64,000 nt of DNA. Origin: Burkholderiales bacterium (GTDB lineage Bacteria > Pseudomonadota > Gammaproteobacteria > Burkholderiales > Burkholderiaceae_C). Positions 43,621-51,230 of this stretch are shown in pieces; position 1 is the stretch's first letter; each line of letters begins with the position of its first letter. The DNA lies in NCBI GenBank assembly GCA_017307855.1, contig JAFKGD010000004.1, positions 248,001 to 312,000 of the forward strand, in the 5' to 3' direction. Made by a program: the position numbers and the translations under genes. The notes below the pieces were generated by a model. The model did no database searches. It saw only the letters and a program-made list of their open reading frames with translations, and had not been told where the DNA came from.

Positions 43621-44880
43621 TCAGCGCCCCTGGTACTGGATACGGTAGATCACGCCGTTCTGGTCTTCGGCGACGAGGAGCGATCCGTCGGCAGCCACGG
43701 CCAGTCCGGCCAGCCGGCCGAACTGCGATGGACGCTGCGCCTGCCGGCGCTCGGCCTCGCCCGCGGCCGGACCGGGACGGGCGTGTGTATCGGCAGGCCC
43801 CGCCATCAGCCAACCGCTGATGAAGTCTTCGAACGCCACGGGCCGGCCCGCCGCATCGAAGCGCACGCGCACCACCTTGTAGCCGCTGGGCTGGCCACGG
43901 TTCCACGAGCCGCGCATGGCCACGAACGCATCGTTGCGGAACTCGGCCGGGAACTGGGCGCCGGTGTAGAACACCATGCCGATCGGCGCCGCGTGCGCGG
44001 TGTAGGTCAGAACCGAGGGCTCGGTCGTCGGGCAGAAATCGCGCTTGGTGCTGTGGGGCGGATCGTTGAACTGGCGGCTGTCCACCACGCGGCGCTCATA
44101 GCAGAAAGGCCAGCCATAGTGCTTGCCCTGCATGAGTGCGTTGAGTTCTTCGGGCGGCCAGTCATCGCCGTGGTAGTCGGCGCCATGGTCCATGCCGTAC
44201 ATCACGCCCGTGGCCGGATGCCAGCCGAAGCCGATGGTGTTGCGCAGCCCGCGTGCGAACACGCTGCGCGCTCGGCCGTCGGGCTGGGCCTGCACGATGG
44301 TGGCGGCCTCGGGATTGGATTCGCGGCAATCGTTGCAGGTGGAGCCCACCGTGATGTAGAGCAACCCGTCGGGTCCGAACGCGAGCGTGCGGTTGGGATG
44401 CTGGCCGGCATCGGGCAGATCGTCGATCAGCACGCGCGGCTCCCCCAGGGCGCCGTCGGGCAGCACGGCTGCGGCCAGCACCTTCTTGTCGGTCGCCATA
44501 TAGAGCTGGCCGCCGCGCAGCGCCAGACCGTGCACCCACTTGAGGTTCTGCGCCACGATGCGGCGCTCGGCCACGCGGCCCTGCGCATCGGTGCCGCGCA
44601 GCAGCATGACGTCGCCCTGCTCGCGCCGGCTCACATAGACGTCGCCGTTCGGCGCCACCTGCATCCAGCGCACGTTGCCCGCATCGCGGGCCCACACGCT
44701 GGCCTTGAAGCCCGCGGGCACGGACAGGCGGGCCAGCAAGGCCTCGTCGAACTTGAGCGGCGTCGGCTCATTCACGGTGGTACTGACGGTGGCTGGCCCG
44801 TCGCCCGGAGGCAACTGGGCGAAGGCGTCGACCGCCTGGATGCCGGCGACGAAAGCCGCGCAGATCAACAATGTCTTCAT
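43621..44880 (-). CDS. PQQ-dependent sugar (sorbosone-type) dehydrogenase-like protein
   Basis: 419 residues with a Sec signal (MKTLLICAAFVAGIQAVDAFA). The mature protein is a soluble-glucose-dehydrogenase-type propeller: LLARLSVPAGFKASVWARD, QHPNRTLAFGPDGLLYITVG, RNTIGFGWHPATGVMYGMDHG, GWPFCYE and AFVAMRGSWNR. Family members oxidise aldoses or sorbosone, but many lack activity. First gene of the operon that continues with sodC. A TGTCCTAC element lies 188 bp upstream and a Crp/Fnr-type palindrome 134 bp upstream. Confidence 0.87.
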   Translation of the reverse strand: MKTLLICAAFVAGIQAVDAFAQLPPGDGPATVSTTVNEPTPLKFDEALLARLSVPAGFKASVWARDAGNVRWMQVAPNGDVYVSRREQGDVMLLRGTDAQGRVAERRIVAQNLKWVHGLALRGGQLYMATDKKVLAAAVLPDGALGEPRVLIDDLPDAGQHPNRTLAFGPDGLLYITVGSTCNDCRESNPEAATIVQAQPDGRARSVFARGLRNTIGFGWHPATGVMYGMDHGADYHGDDWPPEELNALMQGKHYGWPFCYERRVVDSRQFNDPPHSTKRDFCPTTEPSVLTYTAHAAPIGMVFYTGAQFPAEFRNDAFVAMRGSWNRGQPSGYKVVRVRFDAAGRPVAFEDFISGWLMAGPADTHARPGPAAGEAERRQAQRPSQFGRLAGLAVAADGSLLVAEDQNGVIYRIQYQGR

Positions 44881-45013
44881 CTCGCTCGATCCCTGCAGGA
44901 GTGACCGGCGATTGTTGGCAGCAGCATGGCGTGCCGGCCATCGTTCGTCATCGCCATCAGGCGTGGGAATGGGCCCACAGGGCCGCCGTTACAGATGCCA
45001 GGCCCTCCGCGGA

Positions 45014-45075
45014 CTTAACCCAGGTTAAGACCCTGTCCCGGATCGCAGGACGCGGGGCCCTTTGCGTGTAGGACA
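45014..45075. promoter_or_regulatory. Divergent control region of the sodC and stressosome operons
   Basis: The 290-bp gap 44881-45170 contains the perfect palindrome CTTAACC-CA-GGTTAAG (45014-45029), which can be read as TTAAC-N4-GTTAA like the site at 29459, and a TGTCCTACAC element on the minus strand (45075-45068) reading toward the sodC operon. For the plus strand, CATAAT at 45122-45127 is a possible -10. Joint control of both operons by the Crp/Fnr protein is inferred. Confidence 0.55.
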
Positions 45076-45170
45076 ACGCCCCTATCGGTTGGCGCTGCGG
45101 CGTTTTTTCAGGGCCCCCACCCATAATCGGCGCGCTGTTACATCCCTTGACTCTTCCCGTGAGGTTGCAC

Positions 45171-46049
45171 GTGCCCGACAAGAAAAGCGCTGGCCAGATC
45201 CTGAGTGCCGACGAGACCACCATCCTCGACGAATGGATGCAGGCGCAATTGGCCGACACCACGCGCCGCGAACTGATCGGCGAGGCCGAGCTGAACGAGC
45301 AGTCGCGCCGCTTCCTGAGCCTGCTCTCGCAGGCACTCTCGCATGGCGCGGAGGGCGACCTCTCGGGTGCGCACTGGGACGACGTCAAGGCCGCGCTGGG
45401 CGCGCTGTCGAAGAGCCGCGCAGTCGCCGGCTTCAGCCCGGGCGAAACCGCCACCTTCGTGTTCTCCCTCAAGCAGCCGCTGTTCGCCTCGCTCGCCCGC
45501 GCCTATACCGGCGACGCTGCGCGCCTGGCTGACGAGAGCTGGAATGTGTCGCTGCTGCTGGACAAGCTGGGCCTGCTCACGGTGGACGCCTACCAGCAGA
45601 GCCGCGAACTGGTCATCGTGCGCCAGCAGCAGGAACTGCTGGAACTCTCCACCCCCGTCATCCGGTTGTGGGACGGCATCGTCGCCGTGCCGCTGATCGG
45701 CACGCTCGACAGCGAGCGCACGCAGGTGGTGATGGAATCGCTGCTGGAGTCCATCGTGGAGAACGAGGCCACCATCGCCATCATCGACATCACCGGCGTG
45801 CCCACTGTGGACACGCTGGTGGCGCAGCATCTGCTCAAGACCATCTCGGCCGCGCGCCTGATGGGAGCCGAGTGCATCCTGTCGGGCATCCGGCCGCAGA
45901 TCGCGCAGACCATCGTGCATCTGGGTGTGGACCTGGGCGGCGTGGGCACGAAGTCGACGCTGGCCGATGCGCTCAAGCTTGCTTTCCAGAGGCGCAGCCT
46001 GGTGGTGAACACCAGGGCCCTTGCCGCCAGCGGCACGCCGGGAGCCTGA
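45171..46049 (+). CDS. rsbR: RsbR-like stressosome sensor (RsbRD_N + STAS)
   Basis: 292 residues. The N-terminal 150 form an all-helical sensor domain (ILDEWMQAQLADTTRRELIG start, RsbRD_N-like). The STAS domain (about 165-275) carries DITGVPTVDTLVAQHL and CILSGIRPQIAQTI, the regions phosphorylated in Bacillus RsbR; Thr and Ser are present. It should assemble with RsbS into a stressosome. GTG 45171 is chosen because GAGG lies 6 nt upstream; a TTG at 45147 is possible. First gene of a seven-gene operon. Confidence 0.9.
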   Translation: MPDKKSAGQILSADETTILDEWMQAQLADTTRRELIGEAELNEQSRRFLSLLSQALSHGAEGDLSGAHWDDVKAALGALSKSRAVAGFSPGETATFVFSLKQPLFASLARAYTGDAARLADESWNVSLLLDKLGLLTVDAYQQSRELVIVRQQQELLELSTPVIRLWDGIVAVPLIGTLDSERTQVVMESLLESIVENEATIAIIDITGVPTVDTLVAQHLLKTISAARLMGAECILSGIRPQIAQTIVHLGVDLGGVGTKSTLADALKLAFQRRSLVVNTRALAASGTPGA

Positions 46050-46053
46050 GGCC

Positions 46054-46437
46054 TTGGAACGCATCCCCATCCTCAAGCTGGGCGACCTGCTGCTCGTCAC
46101 CGTGCAGGTCGAGCTGCACGACCAGCTCGCGCTGACGCTGCAGGACGACCTGACCAACATGCTGGCGCGCACGCGCGCACGCGGCGTGCTGATCGACATC
46201 TCCGGACTCGAGATCGTCGATTCGTTCATCGGCCGCTCGCTCGGCAACATCGCGGCCGTGGCCGGCATCATGGACGCCACCACCGTGCTGGTGGGGATGC
46301 GGCCGGCCGTCGCGATCACGCTGGTGGAGCTGGGCATGTCGTTGCGCGGCATCCGCACGGCACTCAATGTGGACAAGGGCATGGCGCTGCTGCGGGAATC
46401 GGTCGATGAACCGGGAGCCACGCCATCGCCGTCCTGA
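46054..46437 (+). CDS. rsbS: RsbS-like STAS scaffold protein
   Basis: 127 residues, a lone STAS domain. DISGLEIVDSFIGRSLG includes the Ser equivalent to the RsbS phosphorylation site, and VLVGMRPAVAITLVELG the second STAS loop. It should form the stressosome core with RsbR and hold RsbT until phosphorylated. The start is TTG at 46054, 4 bp after the rsbR stop codon; ATG candidates further upstream would overlap rsbR and lack conservation. Confidence 0.9.
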   Translation: MERIPILKLGDLLLVTVQVELHDQLALTLQDDLTNMLARTRARGVLIDISGLEIVDSFIGRSLGNIAAVAGIMDATTVLVGMRPAVAITLVELGMSLRGIRTALNVDKGMALLRESVDEPGATPSPS

Positions 46438-46835
46438 CAGCACAGACACTGGACATCCGCACACCCGACCAGCTCACCCTGGCGCGGCGTACCGTCCAGG
46501 AATGGGCCACGCGTATCGGCTTCAGCGTCGTCGAACGCACGAAGTTCGTCACGGCGGCCAGCGAGATCGGCCGCAATGCGCTGGTACACGGCAAGGGCGG
46601 CACCATGCGCATCGAGGAAATCGCCCGCGACGGGCGCCAGGGCCTGCAACTGGTTTTCCAGGATCAGGGCCCGGGGATCGCCGACGTGCAGCGCGCCATG
46701 ACCGATGGCTTCTCCACCGCCAACAGCATGGGACTGGGCCTTGGCGGCACGAAGCGGCTGGTCAACGAGTTCGATATTTCATCCACCCCGGGCCAAGGCA
46801 CGCGGGTCGTCATCACGCAATGGAAACGTCGGTAG
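46434..46835 (+). CDS. rsbT: RsbT-like serine kinase (non-ATG start)
   Basis: 133 residues, the same length as Bacillus RsbT. A GHKL ATPase/kinase: N box TAASEIGRNALVHG, then FQDQGPGIADV and the G box NSMGLGLGGTKRLV. It should phosphorylate RsbS/RsbR and, when released, act on a downstream partner. No ATG, GTG or TTG exists before residue 54 of this frame. The likely start is CTG at 46434, overlapping the rsbS stop codon (CTGA); AUC at 46425, 7 nt after GGGAG, is the alternative. The 76-residue ATG form at 46605 would lose the N box. Confidence 0.88.
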   Translation: MTAQTLDIRTPDQLTLARRTVQEWATRIGFSVVERTKFVTAASEIGRNALVHGKGGTMRIEEIARDGRQGLQLVFQDQGPGIADVQRAMTDGFSTANSMGLGLGGTKRLVNEFDISSTPGQGTRVVITQWKRR

Positions 46836-47818
46836 AAATCGAAGGCGCCAACCGGGCGGCCGACGTGCGCCGCGCGGTCGCCGATGTGGCTGCGCGCCTG
46901 AGGCTGGACGAAACCACGGCCGGCCGCGCGGCCCTGGTGGGCACCGAGATGGCCACCAACATCGCCAAGTACGGCAAGCGCGGCAGCGTGGCGGTGGATG
47001 CGTTCGACGACCGCGATGGCGTGGGCGTGCAGTTGCTGGCCACCGACAGCGGCCCCGGCATCGCGAATTTTGAGCTGGCCGCACGCGATGGCCATTCCAC
47101 CGGCGGCAGCCTGGGCCTGGGTCTGGGCGTGCTGCGGCGCAATGCGGATGTCTTCGACCACTACTCGGTCGAGCAGCGCGGCGCGGCCCTCCTCGCGCGC
47201 GTGCGGCGGCCCGGCAGCGAGCCCGCGCGCGCACCCGGACGGCTGGACATCGGCTGGCGCATGTCGCCCAAGCCGGGGCAGGAACAATCCGGCGACAACT
47301 GGACCGCCAAGCGTGCCGGCCGCTGGCAGCGCGTGAGCGTGATCGACGGCTTGGGCCATGGCCCGCTGGCGGCCACCGCATCGGCCGAGGCCGTGGCGGC
47401 GGTGCAGGCCTCAATGGAGCGCGACGGACCCGAGGACGTGCTGGCCGCCGCCCACCGCCAGCTCAAGAACACGCGCGGCGCCGTGATGTCCGTGGTTGAC
47501 GTCGACACCGCCAGCGGCGTCGTGCGCTTCGCGGGCATCGGCAACATCACAGGACTGATCTGGAGTGCCGCGCGCGCGCAGCACCTGCTGCCGGCCGAGG
47601 GCATCGTGGGCTACAACATGCAGCGGCTGCGCACGCACGAGTACCGCTGGGCCCCCAATGCCGTGCTGGTGCTGGCCAGCGACGGCCTGTCGTCGCGCCT
47701 GCAGTTCGAGCCGGCGCTGATGAGCCGCCACCCGGCACTGATCGCGGGCGTGCTGTTCCGCGACCACCTGCGCACCACTGACGATGCCACCGTGGTGGTC
47801 GCGAAGGTCGTTGCATGA
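46820..47818 (+). CDS. RsbT-like ATPase fused to RsbX-like PP2C phosphatase
   Basis: 332 residues. Residues 1-135 are a second anti-sigma-type GHKL domain (GTEMATNIAKYGKRG; TDSGPGIANFE; GGSLGLGLGVLRR). Residues 140-332 are a SpoIIE/RsbX-type PP2C phosphatase with metal Asp motifs SGDNW, VIDGLGHGPLAA, GIGNITG, LASDGLSSR and TDDATVVV all intact. It should reset RsbR/RsbS by dephosphorylation. The ATG lies 16 bp inside rsbT. In Bacillus RsbX is a separate protein, so the fused ATPase is notable. Confidence 0.9.
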   Translation: METSVEIEGANRAADVRRAVADVAARLRLDETTAGRAALVGTEMATNIAKYGKRGSVAVDAFDDRDGVGVQLLATDSGPGIANFELAARDGHSTGGSLGLGLGVLRRNADVFDHYSVEQRGAALLARVRRPGSEPARAPGRLDIGWRMSPKPGQEQSGDNWTAKRAGRWQRVSVIDGLGHGPLAATASAEAVAAVQASMERDGPEDVLAAAHRQLKNTRGAVMSVVDVDTASGVVRFAGIGNITGLIWSAARAQHLLPAEGIVGYNMQRLRTHEYRWAPNAVLVLASDGLSSRLQFEPALMSRHPALIAGVLFRDHLRTTDDATVVVAKVVA

Positions 47819-49080
47819 AGCAGCACCCGCTGGTCACCACGCGCGTCACCGGTGCTCAGTTGCTGAACGTGCGCGATCGCGCGCGGCAGATCGCCGGCCT
47901 GTTCCAGCTCGACCGGCTGCAGACCACACGCTTCGTGACGGCGGTATCCGAGATCGCGCGCAATACCGCCGACTACGCCGTCGAAGGCACGGCGTCGTTC
48001 TTCTTCGAGGAAGCCGCGCACCGCGACGCGCCCCAGTACGTGGGGGTGACGCTGGCCGACAAGGGCCCGGGCATCGAGCGCGCGGACGACCTGCTGGCGG
48101 GCGCGCGAACGGCCCATGGCGCTGTGCCGGTGGGCCTGGCGGGCGCGCGCCGGCTGGTCGACGTGTTCGCCATCGACACGGCCCCCGGTCGCGGCACGAC
48201 GGTCACGCTGCGCATGGCCCTGCCCCGCGCGGCCGGCACCGTCGAGGTGAAGGCGCTGTCGCGCATGATGGACGACCTGACGCGCCAGCGGCCCCCCTCG
48301 GCGCTGGAAGAACTGGAGCGCCAGAACCGCGAGATGCTCGCAACGCTCGACGAACTGCGCGTGCGGCAGACCGAACTGCAGCGCGCTGACGAACGGAAGA
48401 ACAATTTCCTCGCCATGCTGGCGCACGAGTTGCGCACGCCGCTGGGCACGCTGCAGATGATGCTGGAGATCATCGCGCGCAACCCGCAGATCGGTGCCGA
48501 CGAGCTGGAACGCCGGCGCGCCGTGATGGCGCGGCAGACCGAACAGATGACGCGGCTGGTGGCCGACCTGATGGATGTCTCGCGCGTCAGCCAGGGCAAG
48601 GTCGAGCTGGCCCGCGTGCCCATCGAAATCAACGAACTCGTCGCTCAATCGGTGGAGGCCGTCACGGGCATGATCGGCGCGCGCCATCACCAGCTGCACA
48701 TCGATGCCAGCCCGGTGGAGCTCTGGTCGGTGGGCGATCCCGCCCGACTGCGCCAGGTATTCACCAACCTGCTGCAGAACGCTGCGCGCTACACGCCCGA
48801 CGGCGGCGAGATACGCGTCGGACTGTCCCGTGAAGGCGCCAGCGCCGTGATTCGCGTGGCCGACAACGGCGTGGGCATCGAGCCCGACACCATGCCGCAC
48901 ATCTTCGACCTCTTCGTGCAGGGCCATCCCGGCGCGGTGGAGGGCCACAGTGGCCTGGGCATTGGTCTGACGCTGGTCCGCCGGCTGGTAGGCGAACATG
49001 GAGGCGAGGTGATGGCAGAGAGTGCGGGCCAAGGCAAGGGCAGCACATTCACCGTCCGGATTCCCCTGACCACGACATGA
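47815..49080 (+). CDS. RsbT-like ATPase fused to a sensor histidine kinase
   Basis: 421 residues. Residues 1-145 are a third RsbT-like GHKL domain (FVTAVSEIARNTADYAVEG; LADKGPGIERADDLL; VGLAGARRLVDVF). A coiled linker leads to HisKA (NFLAMLAHELRTPLGTLQMM) and a classical HATPase (NLLQNAARYTPDGG; GLGIGLTLVRRLVGEHGG). No membrane segment. The N-terminal domain probably docks to the stressosome in place of a sensor, passing its state into a phosphorelay (inference). ATGA overlap with the phosphatase gene. Confidence 0.92.
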   Translation: MKQHPLVTTRVTGAQLLNVRDRARQIAGLFQLDRLQTTRFVTAVSEIARNTADYAVEGTASFFFEEAAHRDAPQYVGVTLADKGPGIERADDLLAGARTAHGAVPVGLAGARRLVDVFAIDTAPGRGTTVTLRMALPRAAGTVEVKALSRMMDDLTRQRPPSALEELERQNREMLATLDELRVRQTELQRADERKNNFLAMLAHELRTPLGTLQMMLEIIARNPQIGADELERRRAVMARQTEQMTRLVADLMDVSRVSQGKVELARVPIEINELVAQSVEAVTGMIGARHHQLHIDASPVELWSVGDPARLRQVFTNLLQNAARYTPDGGEIRVGLSREGASAVIRVADNGVGIEPDTMPHIFDLFVQGHPGAVEGHSGLGIGLTLVRRLVGEHGGEVMAESAGQGKGSTFTVRIPLTTT

Positions 49081-49499
49081 ACACCGATCTCCCGGTCCCC
49101 CCTGCGACGCAAGCCGACACTCGCCCGATGACGGTGCTGGTGGTGGATGATTCCGTCGCTTCCGCCCAGGCCCTGGCCATGGCGCTGGAGATGGACGGCT
49201 ATGTGGCGCATGTCGCTTTCACCGGGCAGTCCGCGCTGGCCGAAGCCAGCACGCACCGGCCCGATTGCGTGCTGCTGGACTTCGGTCTCGACGACATGGA
49301 CGGGCTGCAACTCGCCCGCACGCTGCGCGAGCGCCACGGCGACGATGTCGTGATGATCATGATCACCGGATGGGATACGACACAGGAGCGCGTGGGCGAA
49401 GCCGCCGCGCTGGTCGACCACCACTTCACGAAGCCGCTCGATCTCAACCGACTGCGGCGCATCCTGCCGCCGATCGGCCCGCCGAGGGCCGCGGGATGA
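49077..49499 (+). CDS. Single-domain response regulator
   Basis: 140 residues, REC only: acidic pair in VVDDSVASAQ, phosphoacceptor in LLDFGLDDMDG, Thr in MIMITG and Lys in HHFTKPLDLN. Without an output domain it must act by phosphotransfer or protein contact. The ATG overlaps the stop codon of the histidine kinase gene (ATGA), so it is the likely direct phosphoacceptor. Confidence 0.93.
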   Translation: MNTDLPVPPATQADTRPMTVLVVDDSVASAQALAMALEMDGYVAHVAFTGQSALAEASTHRPDCVLLDFGLDDMDGLQLARTLRERHGDDVVMIMITGWDTTQERVGEAAALVDHHFTKPLDLNRLRRILPPIGPPRAAG

Positions 49500-49882
49500 G
49501 CGCGCTGCACAACGTGGACATCGTCGTGGTGGACGACGACGCCGAGGCGGCGCAGACCCTGGCTGAACTTCTGCAGACCGATGGCTACGCCGTACGCAGC
49601 GCCAGCAGCGGGGCCGAGGCGCTGCAGCTCATCATGGAGCGCCGGCCGCTGGGAGTGTTGCTGGACGTCGACATGCCGGCCATCAACGGCTACCAGCTCG
49701 CGCGGCGCCTGCGCGAGCATTTCGCCGGCGACCTCGTACTGATCGCATTCACGGGCCTGGGCGACGAGGCCGCCCTGGTTCAGCAGACCTTGCCGCTGGT
49801 GGACGACTTCCTGCGCAAACCGGTGGATCCGAAACAGTTGCGCAAGATCTTCCCGCAGCTGGGGGGGTCGAGTCCTACATGA
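49496..49882 (+). CDS. Second single-domain response regulator
   Basis: 128 residues, REC only: VVVDDDAEAAQ, phosphoacceptor in VLLDVDMPAINGYQ, Thr in LIAFTG and Lys in DDFLRKPVDPKQL. Last gene of the stressosome operon, again joined by ATGA. The pair of REC-only proteins could compete for phosphate or one may be a sink. No DNA-binding output is encoded here. Confidence 0.92.
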   Translation: MSALHNVDIVVVDDDAEAAQTLAELLQTDGYAVRSASSGAEALQLIMERRPLGVLLDVDMPAINGYQLARRLREHFAGDLVLIAFTGLGDEAALVQQTLPLVDDFLRKPVDPKQLRKIFPQLGGSSPT

Positions 49883-49959
49883 GTCACCTGCTCCGAACTA
49901 CGAACCGGACGATGCGCCACGCGGAAGATTCGTTCCGTTCGCAACCCAAGGAGATCAGC

Positions 49960-50352
49960 ATGAACGCAAAACTCACCCTCGTCGCTTCGCTCATCGCCGC
50001 CTCGTCGATGTTCTCGGCCCACGCCATGACCAAGGCCGAATACGACGCCGCCAAGGACCGCATCGAGCAGACGCACAAGGCCGACAAGAAGGCTTGCGAC
50101 GCCATGAAGGACAACGCCAAGGACGTGTGCGAGAAAGAAGCCGACGGCAAGGAAAAGATCGCCAAGGCCGAACTCGAGCAGTCGTACAAGCCCAGCGACC
50201 GCAACGCCCGCAAGGTGCAGGAAGTGCGCGCCGACACCACCTATGACATCGCCAAGGAAAAGTGCGATGACATGAACGGCGATGCCAAGAAGTCGTGCGA
50301 GAACGACGCCAAGGCCGCGCGCGACACCGCCAAGCGCAATCTCAAGGGTTGA
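49960..50352 (+). CDS. Small periplasmic Lys/Asp-rich helical protein
   Basis: 130 residues. A Sec signal (MNAKLTLVASLIAASSMFSAHA) is followed by a long charged region made of Lys, Asp and Ala with repeated ACDAMK/CEKEA/CDDMN segments that carry four spaced cysteines. Such proteins in Burkholderiales are abundant and often stress-induced; no biochemical role is established. AAGGAG precedes ATG 49960, GTCCTAC is at 49872-49878, and a strong terminator follows. Confidence 0.85.
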   Translation: MNAKLTLVASLIAASSMFSAHAMTKAEYDAAKDRIEQTHKADKKACDAMKDNAKDVCEKEADGKEKIAKAELEQSYKPSDRNARKVQEVRADTTYDIAKEKCDDMNGDAKKSCENDAKAARDTAKRNLKG

Positions 50353-50373
50353 GGCCTGACCGCCTTCGATCGA

Positions 50374-50399
50374 AGCCCCGCAGCCGCGGGGCTTTTTGT
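50374..50399 (+). terminator. Rho-independent terminator
   Basis: AGCCCCGC (50374-50381) and GCGGGGCT (50386-50393) form a perfect 8-bp stem with a four-base loop, followed by TTTT. It ends the periplasmic-protein message and is the clearest intrinsic terminator in the window. Confidence 0.9.
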
Positions 50400-50438
50400 T
50401 GCCCTGCCCTCCAACGCCAGATCCGGAAGACCCCAGCC

Positions 50439-51230
50439 ATGCGCCTGCTCGTGCGAAGCCACGTCGAACTCGAATGCGAGGATGTCTGCCCGACCGTCGC
50501 CATGCTGCGGCCGTCGAGCGGCGACGCCCAGTGGGTCGTGTCGCAAAGCTACGAGATGGCGCCGTGGATCCGCGCCAGCGAATACACCGATTCCTTCGGC
50601 AACGTGTGCCAGCGCTTCACGCTGCCCGAAGGCATCTCGACGATCGATGTGCAGTCGCAGGTGGTGGTGGCCGACGACATCAACGACTCGGAAGACGACG
50701 GCTTCGTGCTGATCGACGAGTTGCCCACGGACTGCCTGATGTACCTGCTGCCCAGCCGATACTGCCCTGCCGACGCCGCGATCGAGCGCGCCTGGGAGAT
50801 CGTGGGCAAGGCCACGCCCGGCTTCGGCCAGGTCATGGCGATCAGCAACTGGATCCGGAAGAACATCACCTACCGGTACGGCGTGAGCACCGAGAGCACC
50901 GGTGCGTTCGAGACGATGGAAGCCCGCGCCGGCGTGTGCCGTGACTTCTCGCACGTCGCCATCACGCTGTGCCGGGCGCTGCGCATCCCCGCGCGTTATG
51001 TGTCGGGCTACCTGCACAAGCTCGACCCGATGGACATGCACGCCTGGTTCGAAGCCTACGTCGGCGGCTCGTGGCACACCTTCGACGCCACCCAGGCCAC
51101 ACGCGAGCCGGGCCGCGTGGTGGTTTCCTACGGTCGCGACGCGGCCGACGTGGCCTTCCTGTCCAACTACGGGCCGATGAAGGTGAACGCGATGAAGGTG
51201 AGTGTGGAGAAGCTGCTGACGGCCGGTTGA
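50439..51230 (+). CDS. Transglutaminase family protein (second paralogue)
   Basis: 263 residues. An N-terminal beta-sandwich (RLLVRSHVELECEDVCPTVAM) precedes the transglutaminase core: Cys in AGVCRDFSHVAITLCRAL, His in MDMHAWFEAYVG and Asp in WHTFDATQ. No signal peptide. It resembles the protein at 6621-7502 but the N-terminal domain differs. ATG 50439 has GGAAG upstream; longer starts would cross the terminator. Function unknown; it is probably a single-gene unit. Confidence 0.9.
   Translation: MRLLVRSHVELECEDVCPTVAMLRPSSGDAQWVVSQSYEMAPWIRASEYTDSFGNVCQRFTLPEGISTIDVQSQVVVADDINDSEDDGFVLIDELPTDCLMYLLPSRYCPADAAIERAWEIVGKATPGFGQVMAISNWIRKNITYRYGVSTESTGAFETMEARAGVCRDFSHVAITLCRALRIPARYVSGYLHKLDPMDMHAWFEAYVGGSWHTFDATQATREPGRVVVSYGRDAADVAFLSNYGPMKVNAMKVSVEKLLTAG

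Follow-up and report, generated by a model that had tools for sequence, protein, structure and literature searches.

A stressosome operon with RsbT-type domains on its phosphatase and on a histidine kinase: a possible route to His-Asp output

How do stressosomes hand on their signal in bacteria outside the SigB group? In Vibrio an interaction between RsbT and its downstream kinase was sought and not found (PMC9237108). The question is raised again by an operon of a Burkholderiales bacterium, located at positions 45171-49882 of a stretch of 64,000 nucleotides (assembly GCA_017307855.1, contig JAFKGD010000004.1, positions 248,001 to 312,000), which is called the window throughout. The operon encodes RsbR, RsbS, RsbT, an RsbT-type domain joined to a SpoIIE/RsbX-type phosphatase (T·X), an RsbT-type domain joined to the HisKA-HATPase_c core of a histidine kinase (T·HK), and two proteins that consist of a receiver (REC) domain only. 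As the putative output kinase itself bears an RsbT-type domain, its partner can be named and tested. The answer considered here, to which we give an even chance, is that the output of this stressosome is a histidine kinase with an RsbT-type docking domain of its own, giving a His-Asp output.

A preliminary description, made from the sequence alone, had proposed this order of genes and domains, and Pfam bears it out, with every match above its curated cut-off. All genes lie on the forward strand. T·HK (47815..49080) begins with the RsbT-type domain (47854-48213; HATPase_c_2, 45.1 bits in two stretches, the best at residues 14-133), which is followed by a linker, HisKA (48397-48597; 53.7 bits) and HATPase_c (48733-49071; 122.3 bits). 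In the genome scan with HATPase_c_2 its N-terminal stretch alone scored 29.3 bits, the cut-off being 27.4. The H-box His and HATPase_c of a HisKA sensor kinase are both present, and this His (H204) is invariant in 50 aligned T·HKs (of 91 listed plus that of the window). T·X (46820..47818), in the position of RsbX, is composed of an RsbT-type domain (about 46820-47215; HATPase_c_2, 39.1 bits) and a SpoIIE-type phosphatase domain (about 47216-47818; 53.2 bits). The stand-alone GHKL-type kinase RsbT (46425..46829, with its probable start) scored 52.1 bits with HATPase_c_2; the scaffold protein RsbS (46054..46437) scored 31.1 bits with STAS; RsbR (45171..46049) scored 98.6 bits with the sensor domain RsbRD_N (PF14361) and 53.6 bits with STAS. 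With NCBIfam, no model reached its cut-off for RsbR, RsbS, RsbT or T·X. The genes rec1 (49077..49499) and rec2 (49496..49882) code for receivers (Response_reg, 76.1 and 79.4 bits) without an output domain in Pfam, hence the end of the putative relay lies outside these genes. All junctions from rsbS on overlap, as had also been proposed: rsbT overlaps both of its neighbours, and T·X/T·HK, T·HK/rec1 and rec1/rec2 overlap by 4 nt each. The frame of rsbS is open from 46021; a TTG start at 46054 is preferred for its likeness to the annotated RsbS of Deinococcus radiodurans, and rsbR and rsbS are then probably separated by 4 nt.

The adjacent STAS proteins RsbR and RsbS resemble known stressosome proteins closely. 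RsbS matches the solved RsbS chain 6jhk_A at 1.3e-30, and RsbR matches solved stressosome RsbR chains at 8e-35 to 1e-33. In an alignment of 93 loci, from which one duplicate locus was dropped, the position of Listeria RsbS S56 is occupied by Ser in 92, including the window, and by Thr in one. The position of Listeria RsbR T209 is Thr in 93/93, again including the window. At the position of Listeria RsbR T175 all 93 RsbRs have Ser, not Thr. Thus the switch retains phosphorylatable residues at these three positions. The idea that the two invariant Thr columns of RsbR are both of the Listeria phosphosites was rejected, because a recount placed them at T209 and T241. RsbT of the window has the catalytic Glu, the N-box Asn and the G1 Asp of a GHKL kinase.

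RsbR and RsbS each occur once in the genome of the window, and its only short HATPase_c_2 protein is RsbT; the remaining HATPase_c_2 matches are in frames of at least 388 aa. No RsbW was seen in this genome. The earlier statement that a sigma or anti-sigma gene is missing therefore holds for an RsbW-type gene; sigma factors were not searched for. SpoIIE exceeded its cut-off in T·X and in two partial matches (25.0 and 25.7 bits), and a second full SpoIIE phosphatase (RsbU) was not found in the genome. One further STAS frame (106 aa, 25.1 bits) could be RsbV or MlaB.

Distribution and age of the RsbT-type fusions

The gene set recurs in other bacteria. GTDB species genomes were scanned with a front-domain alignment of eight sequences (A1) and searched for the pattern [AVI]TAVSEIAR, and the best 80 of 356 confirmed stretches were examined. 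Of these 80 T·HK loci, 71 have the full set of RsbR, RsbS, RsbT, T·X and T·HK, under ten phylum labels (44 Pseudomonadota, 8 Cyanobacteriota, 6 Acidobacteriota, 4 Rokuibacteriota, 3 Nitrospirota, 2 Chloroflexota and one each of Methylomirabilota, Gemmatimonadota, Bdellovibrionota and Armatimonadota). Rokuibacteriota and Methylomirabilota are joined in some taxonomies. The other nine comprise seven loci in which a contig end cuts or nearly cuts the operon (L077, L097, L098, L111, L117, L125, L133) and two from Ramlibacter without a separately recognised RsbT (L076, L079), the latter also without RsbS. As the scan targeted T·HK, the 71/80 indicates constancy of the neighbours and not the frequency of the class. 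D. radiodurans R1 has all five core genes in an operon on megaplasmid MP1 (L179 3131-8935). The search for the same gene order elsewhere, suggested along with the preliminary description, was thus successful. Its picture of an ATPase duplicated onto each output enzyme is right in that three RsbT-type domains exist, two of them fused, but the arrangement is not specific to one betaproteobacterium. Nor is the RsbX-type phosphatase an output enzyme; RsbX is described as a feedback enzyme in the available text of PMC9237108.

Closer to the window, a draw of 250 genomes of its family contained 41 with a match to the T·HK front domain (E<=0.001), a number that includes matches to RsbT and T·X. Among 20 loci picked from this list for annotation, T·HK was present in 7 (6 in the operon, L040 alone), RsbR-RsbS-RsbT-T·X and, after it, a kinase that lacks the front domain ("short kinase") in 11, and RsbT with a further unfused RsbT-like gene and the phosphatase as a gene of its own in 2. 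Frequencies were taken from a sample in which RsbT was searched in 398 Pseudomonadota genomes, that of the window included; 42 match at E<=1e-6, and one locus was annotated in each. T·X occurs with T·HK in 10 of them (9/41 without the window), with a short kinase in 8, with RsbT and no kinase seen in 1 and without a separate RsbT in 7. The domains are unfused in the remaining recognised types (T, T' and X in 2, T and X in 10), and 4 loci are of other kinds. Hence the T·X fusion is widespread across this sample.

Some further observations were made in the sample. In L168, L171-L174, L176 and L177 T·X is the only RsbT-type protein found, and the main T·X clade described below does not include most of their front domains. 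L163 and L169 contain an unfused phosphatase followed by a frame of 309-328 aa in which a T-like (HATPase) domain is the only domain recognised. RsbR carries RsbRD_N in 18/18 operons with T·X and a histidine kinase versus 0/10 operons with unfused T and X, as judged with our own profile, from which divergence could hide RsbRD_N. Possibly there are two stressosome lineages, split by RsbRD_N on RsbR, and the operons with T·X and a histidine kinase may form a different class from the Vibrio type.

Both front ends align with RsbT and keep its N, G1 and G2 boxes with the ATP-site residues, so that the doubt whether the N-termini are related to RsbT/RsbW at all can be laid aside. Residues were counted in 95 T (stand-alone RsbT), 93 T·X and 86 T·HK rows from the family loci, the GTDB loci and the window; the duplicate L039 was dropped, and one T row is L098_T_5953. 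The catalytic Glu, the N-box Asn, the G1 Asp and the second Gly of G2 are invariant in all three sets; for the Glu of T·HK this is partly due to the search pattern, which contains it. The first Gly of G2 is found in 95/95 T, 93/93 T·X and 74/86 T·HK rows, and is Pro in the T·HK of the window. T·HKs that are independent of the search pattern keep the catalytic Glu as well: seven rows of A1 (all but that of the window), L146, L157 and D. radiodurans, the last three of which also keep the N-box Asn. R18 of the window RsbT aligns with R20 of SpoIIAB, which is reported to be essential for the interaction with SpoIIAA (PMC4166321, available text); the equivalent Arg is present in 94/95 T, 93/93 T·X and 86/86 T·HK rows. 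A second Arg, directly before the N-box Asn, is common to T (93/95) and T·HK (86/86), and T·X mostly has Thr here (72/93), as does SpoIIAB. The lid Asp is present in 90/95 T and 93/93 T·X rows and is mostly Gly in T·HK (73/86), which speaks against the T·HK front being a simple copy of RsbT. By comparison with the B. subtilis sequence, we take this Asp to be D92 of RsbT. RsbT D92 contacts the linker of RsbU according to the accessible part of PMC12143880.

The fusions look old. A careful tree was built from 72 domains, 24 of each class (T, T·X, T·HK) and with Deinococcus among them (126 columns, bootstrap not fully settled, unrooted). T·X and T·HK each form a clade in it with support of 100/100, and T as a third clade was not rejected (approximately unbiased test, p-AU 0.274). 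A quick tree of 110 domains concurs; the single T-labelled row in its T·HK clade is L098_T_5953, whose frame is cut by a contig end. A third quick tree also contains 27 domains of other operon types; T·HK and T stay intact in it (99 each), and the T·X-only domains and the lone ones are spread over the tree. Since the two clades cross phyla, each fusion looks like one old event, after which it spread as a module.

Kinase cores, linkers and the possible path of the signal

The kinase cores behind the T·HK front domain do not share this unity. The core of the window matches 25 short-linker cores, itself included, with a median of 219 bits (161-494), and 55 long-linker T·HK cores with a median of 93 bits (73-105). 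The seven best-matching other kinases of its own genome score 85-95 bits, and it is thus no closer to the long-linker T·HK cores than to these; some kinases without a front domain from the same locus set reach 199 bits. That all T·HK cores are one family was rejected by the core tree (one-clade tree, p-AU 0.0039), and the score comparison agrees. The scores weigh more here, because the core tree was a quick one that gave long-branch warnings and includes a very long row (L046_9516). Among eight T·HKs scanned, HisKA was found in seven and HisKA_2/HWE in L157, and the T·HKs of Sphingomonas and Methylobacterium have an HDFNNL H-box. Judged by these sequences, the kinase core is exchanged under one front domain; the domain is constant and the kinase variable. 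One front-domain clade (100/100) on several kinase cores points to the domain as the connector to the stressosome. In the core tree the short kinases group together (100), and weaker forks put this group among the long-linker T·HK cores, which suggests loss of the front domain there.

Single loci add to this picture. At L189 5018-7521, genome G885 has a second T·HK outside its core operon; the 14 kb read there contain neither RsbS nor RsbT nor RsbX. This T·HK was first listed as a candidate orphan, which was rejected because it adjoins an RsbR paralogue on the other strand. An RsbR paired with T·HK would be the expected look of a scaffold client. The T·HK of L143 (3966-5279), one of the ten genomes with T·X and T·HK in the 42-genome sample, retains the RsbT-type domain but has lost the N-box Asn and the G1/G2 motifs.

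The linker between the RsbT-type domain and HisKA is of the short type in the window (48265..48396), that is, without a block of about 28 residues that long-linker T·HKs have. This block, around ETNRGVxALYxELD just before HisKA, is common to long-linker T·HKs and short kinases. A 35-residue block query scored 21.6-37.2 bits in 16 of the 18 loci with T·X and a histidine kinase in the 42-genome sample; it found nothing in L157 and at most 6.0 bits in the other 24 RsbT-positive loci. A longer query that includes the common H-box matched in 119/398 Pseudomonadota genomes. Its 14 best matches (at least 65 bits) are stressosome kinases and the best unrelated match reached 47.6 bits; with two stressosome kinases at 48 and 44 bits, the low end overlaps with unrelated matches. 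The Arg-to-His distance is 91 in the clade of the window versus mostly 118-119. Domain gaps of the T·HKs cluster at 56, 84, 119 and 133, and the linkers of 90 T·HKs, taken between fixed residues, at 91, 118-119, 146 and 160, the last two belonging to another H-box type. The differences 119-91=28 and 160-146=14 are multiples of 7, but 146-119=27 is not and breaks the series, hence exact heptad steps in linker length were not upheld. A heptad-like spacing is suggestive only.

A possible interpretation is the following. RsbR and RsbS would form the STAS scaffold, to which RsbT would bind; upon a signal through the RsbRD_N domain of RsbR it would phosphorylate the conserved Ser/Thr residues of RsbR and RsbS. 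T·X would find the scaffold by its RsbT-type domain and reset it by its phosphatase. T·HK would dock by the same kind of domain and stay in one kinase state as long as RsbS carries no phosphate. Once RsbS is phosphorylated, T·HK would be released or re-docked, and the change would pass down the helical linker into HisKA, which would then feed REC1/REC2 by phosphotransfer. In this most economical reading RsbT, T·X and T·HK would be three clients that compete for one STAS scaffold: a writer, an eraser and an output. The docking Arg, the kept neighbours, the constant front domain on changing kinases and the satellite of RsbR and T·HK support it.

A wider claim could be right or wrong with equal probability: that these operons are a separate stressosome class which spans phyla, and that the RsbT domain is a portable plug placed on a kinase, on the reset phosphatase and on the output histidine kinase, with the cores swapped under it. 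The cores found under this domain are of two distinct HisKA branches, of the HDFNNL-box type and of HisKA_2/HWE. If this were true, a Ser/Thr partner switch would have been turned into a His-Asp relay within one polypeptide. The exchange of cores under one front domain is a natural domain-swap experiment on how an input module drives a histidine kinase.

Several findings weigh against the scaffold-client reading. One T·HK (L040, 4497-5930, genome G097) has no STAS gene within 13.5 kb; the same genome has a complete RsbR-RsbS-RsbT-T·X-short-kinase operon elsewhere (L058). The 8/42 genomes in which T·X is accompanied by a kinase without the RsbT-type domain indicate that the front domain is dispensable in some lineages. 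The kinase of the window has no linker block (5.7 bits with the 35-residue query), and the Asp equated with RsbT D92 is mostly Gly in T·HK. Support for the T·X clade falls to 78 when the 27 more diverse domains are added, and SEIAR is present in most T·HK rows by construction, being part of the search pattern. For V. vulnificus, which has another operon type, the available text of PMC9237108 reports no positive interaction of RsbT with the downstream kinase VvD1.

The signal could also be passed on in trans, which we consider possible but doubtful: free RsbT would bind the kinase linker, or pair with the fused domain, and order the coiled coil, which is its action on RsbU; in cis, the fused domain would tune or mimic this, and binding to the STAS core would not be needed. 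The idea comes from RsbU, which RsbT activates by ordering its coiled-coil linker, and the same source, citing Heinz 2022, reports histidine kinases with RsbU_N beside rsbT (PMC12143880, available text). It would also suit the kinases without the fused domain, which retain the linker block and group together within the long-linker T·HK cores. However, the window-type linker has no such block, the STAS-contact Arg is kept in 86/86 T·HK rows, and RsbU_N had no match in the T·HK of the window (E<=0.05) or in the one short kinase scanned (E<=0.01). An improbable variant makes the fused domains working Ser/Thr kinases that add to RsbT on RsbR/RsbS, the histidine kinase half being a separate activity. 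T·X and T·HK do keep the catalytic Glu, the N-box Asn, G1 and most G2 residues, and the pattern-independent T·HKs named above keep Glu and Asn. But the lid of T·HK differs from that of RsbT, with Asp-Gly and Ser/Thr mostly replaced; L143 still has the fused domain but neither its N-box Asn nor its G1/G2 motifs; and the kept linker block would be left unexplained.

It is very unlikely, in our view, that the front of T·HK is an RsbW-like anti-sigma module which binds a sigma factor and has no part in the stressosome, even though the closest solved sequences to it are chains of the anti-sigma F factor (SpoIIAB) and database records name such short proteins anti-sigma regulatory factors. The only short RsbW-like protein of the genome is RsbT, RsbR and RsbS stand beside T·HK in 71/80 loci, and the Arg that precedes the N-box Asn is common to T·HK and RsbT but not to most T·Xs. 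Just as little is to be expected of the notion that the gene order reflects co-inheritance only and the fused domain is a remnant without a regulatory role. Lineages without the domain exist and L143 is degenerate, but the ATP-site and Arg residues are kept over ten phylum labels, and the front domain persists through exchanges of the kinase core.

Start of rsbT and the flanking genes

The rsbT gene of the window has no ATG, GTG or TTG start. It probably starts at a conserved AUC codon at 46425, with a CTG at 46434 as the alternative. At the codon ten before the conserved Ile8, 120 T genes have ATG (41), ATC (17), GTG (12), ACG (9), TTG (4) or others, and many of the T genes with other codons here start elsewhere. 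Sixteen of the 17 ATC carriers are the window, a Xylophilus metagenome-assembled genome, Comamonadaceae or Burkholderiaceae, and a Shine-Dalgarno-like run is found 6-7 nt upstream in 15 of these 16 rsbT genes. A canonical start codon is absent within 25 codons in 14/121 T genes, and 14/14 have ATC at exactly that codon. In the window (46425-46427) and at the rsbT starts of L059-L073, AUC stands where other rsbT genes carry ATG or GTG. AUC initiates translation weakly; a conserved AUC start, if true, would keep RsbT scarce relative to the scaffold.

No sigma-70-like promoter site was found in 44880-50460, and the same region has 4 terminator-like sites versus a shuffle mean of 2.3 (standard deviation 1.9). 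Downstream, a gene at 49960-50352 with its own ribosome-binding site stands outside the chain of overlapping genes, as does another at 50439-51230. The first presumably codes for a small secreted-looking protein and the second for a transglutaminase-like protein.

Comparison with known systems

With the stressosome of Bacillus and Listeria the operon shares the RsbR/RsbS STAS scaffold with phosphorylatable sites, the RsbT kinase and a SpoIIE-type phosphatase. It differs in that an RsbT-type domain is also present on the phosphatase and on a histidine kinase, that the sensor is RsbRD_N and that Ser replaces Thr at the T175 position. The SigB-type set of RsbU, RsbV, RsbW and a sigma-B cascade was not recovered, as neither a second full SpoIIE phosphatase (RsbU) nor RsbW was found; this does not extend to sigma factors, which were outside the search.

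The Vibrio type (VvD1-VvD2) has the same RSTX module followed by kinase and receiver genes, and a phosphorelay or two-component output of stressosomes has already been proposed there (PMC9237108, PMC10014275, available text). What stands of the earlier interpretation is therefore the three RsbT-type domains and the missing RsbW-type gene; the duplication was not a local one, and the two-component output was in print. In contrast to the globin RsbR and single-domain RsbX of the Vibrio type, neither of which the window has, RsbR bears RsbRD_N and RsbX is fused to HATPase_c_2 here. The running text of both papers, as far as available, does not mention an RsbT-type domain on the kinase, and the literature searched, which comprised open-licence papers, yielded no account of a histidine kinase with a fused RsbT domain.

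Histidine kinases and GGDEF proteins with RsbU_N occur next to rsbT (Heinz 2022; PMC12143880, available text). They resemble T·HK as stressosome output enzymes with a dedicated N-terminal module and a coiled-coil linker; however, the module here is RsbT-like and not the RsbT receptor RsbU_N. For T·X, records of an "ATP-binding SpoIIE family protein phosphatase" (PPM plus HATPase_c_2), one of them on a Paraburkholderia plasmid, describe the same architecture, and no architectural difference was seen. Here T·X is placed between RsbT and T·HK.

A further counterpart is the MP1 operon of D. radiodurans (DR_RS15570-DR_RS15595), which has the same order and domains. Its records are named "STAS domain-containing protein", "anti-sigma regulatory factor" and "ATP-binding protein". 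By gene order we take its T·HK, DR_RS15590, to be DR_B0028. DR_B0028 was higher during recovery from vacuum, and DR_B0028/DR_B0029 are thought to be co-regulated with an antisigma-regulation operon (PMC6501615, citing Makarova 2001; available text). Unlike the T·HK of the window, that of D. radiodurans ends in a REC domain and, by eye, contains the linker block, and a REC-HK protein follows in place of the two REC-only proteins. As a carrier of the operon, D. radiodurans is a tractable organism for the question of how a stressosome and a histidine kinase are connected.

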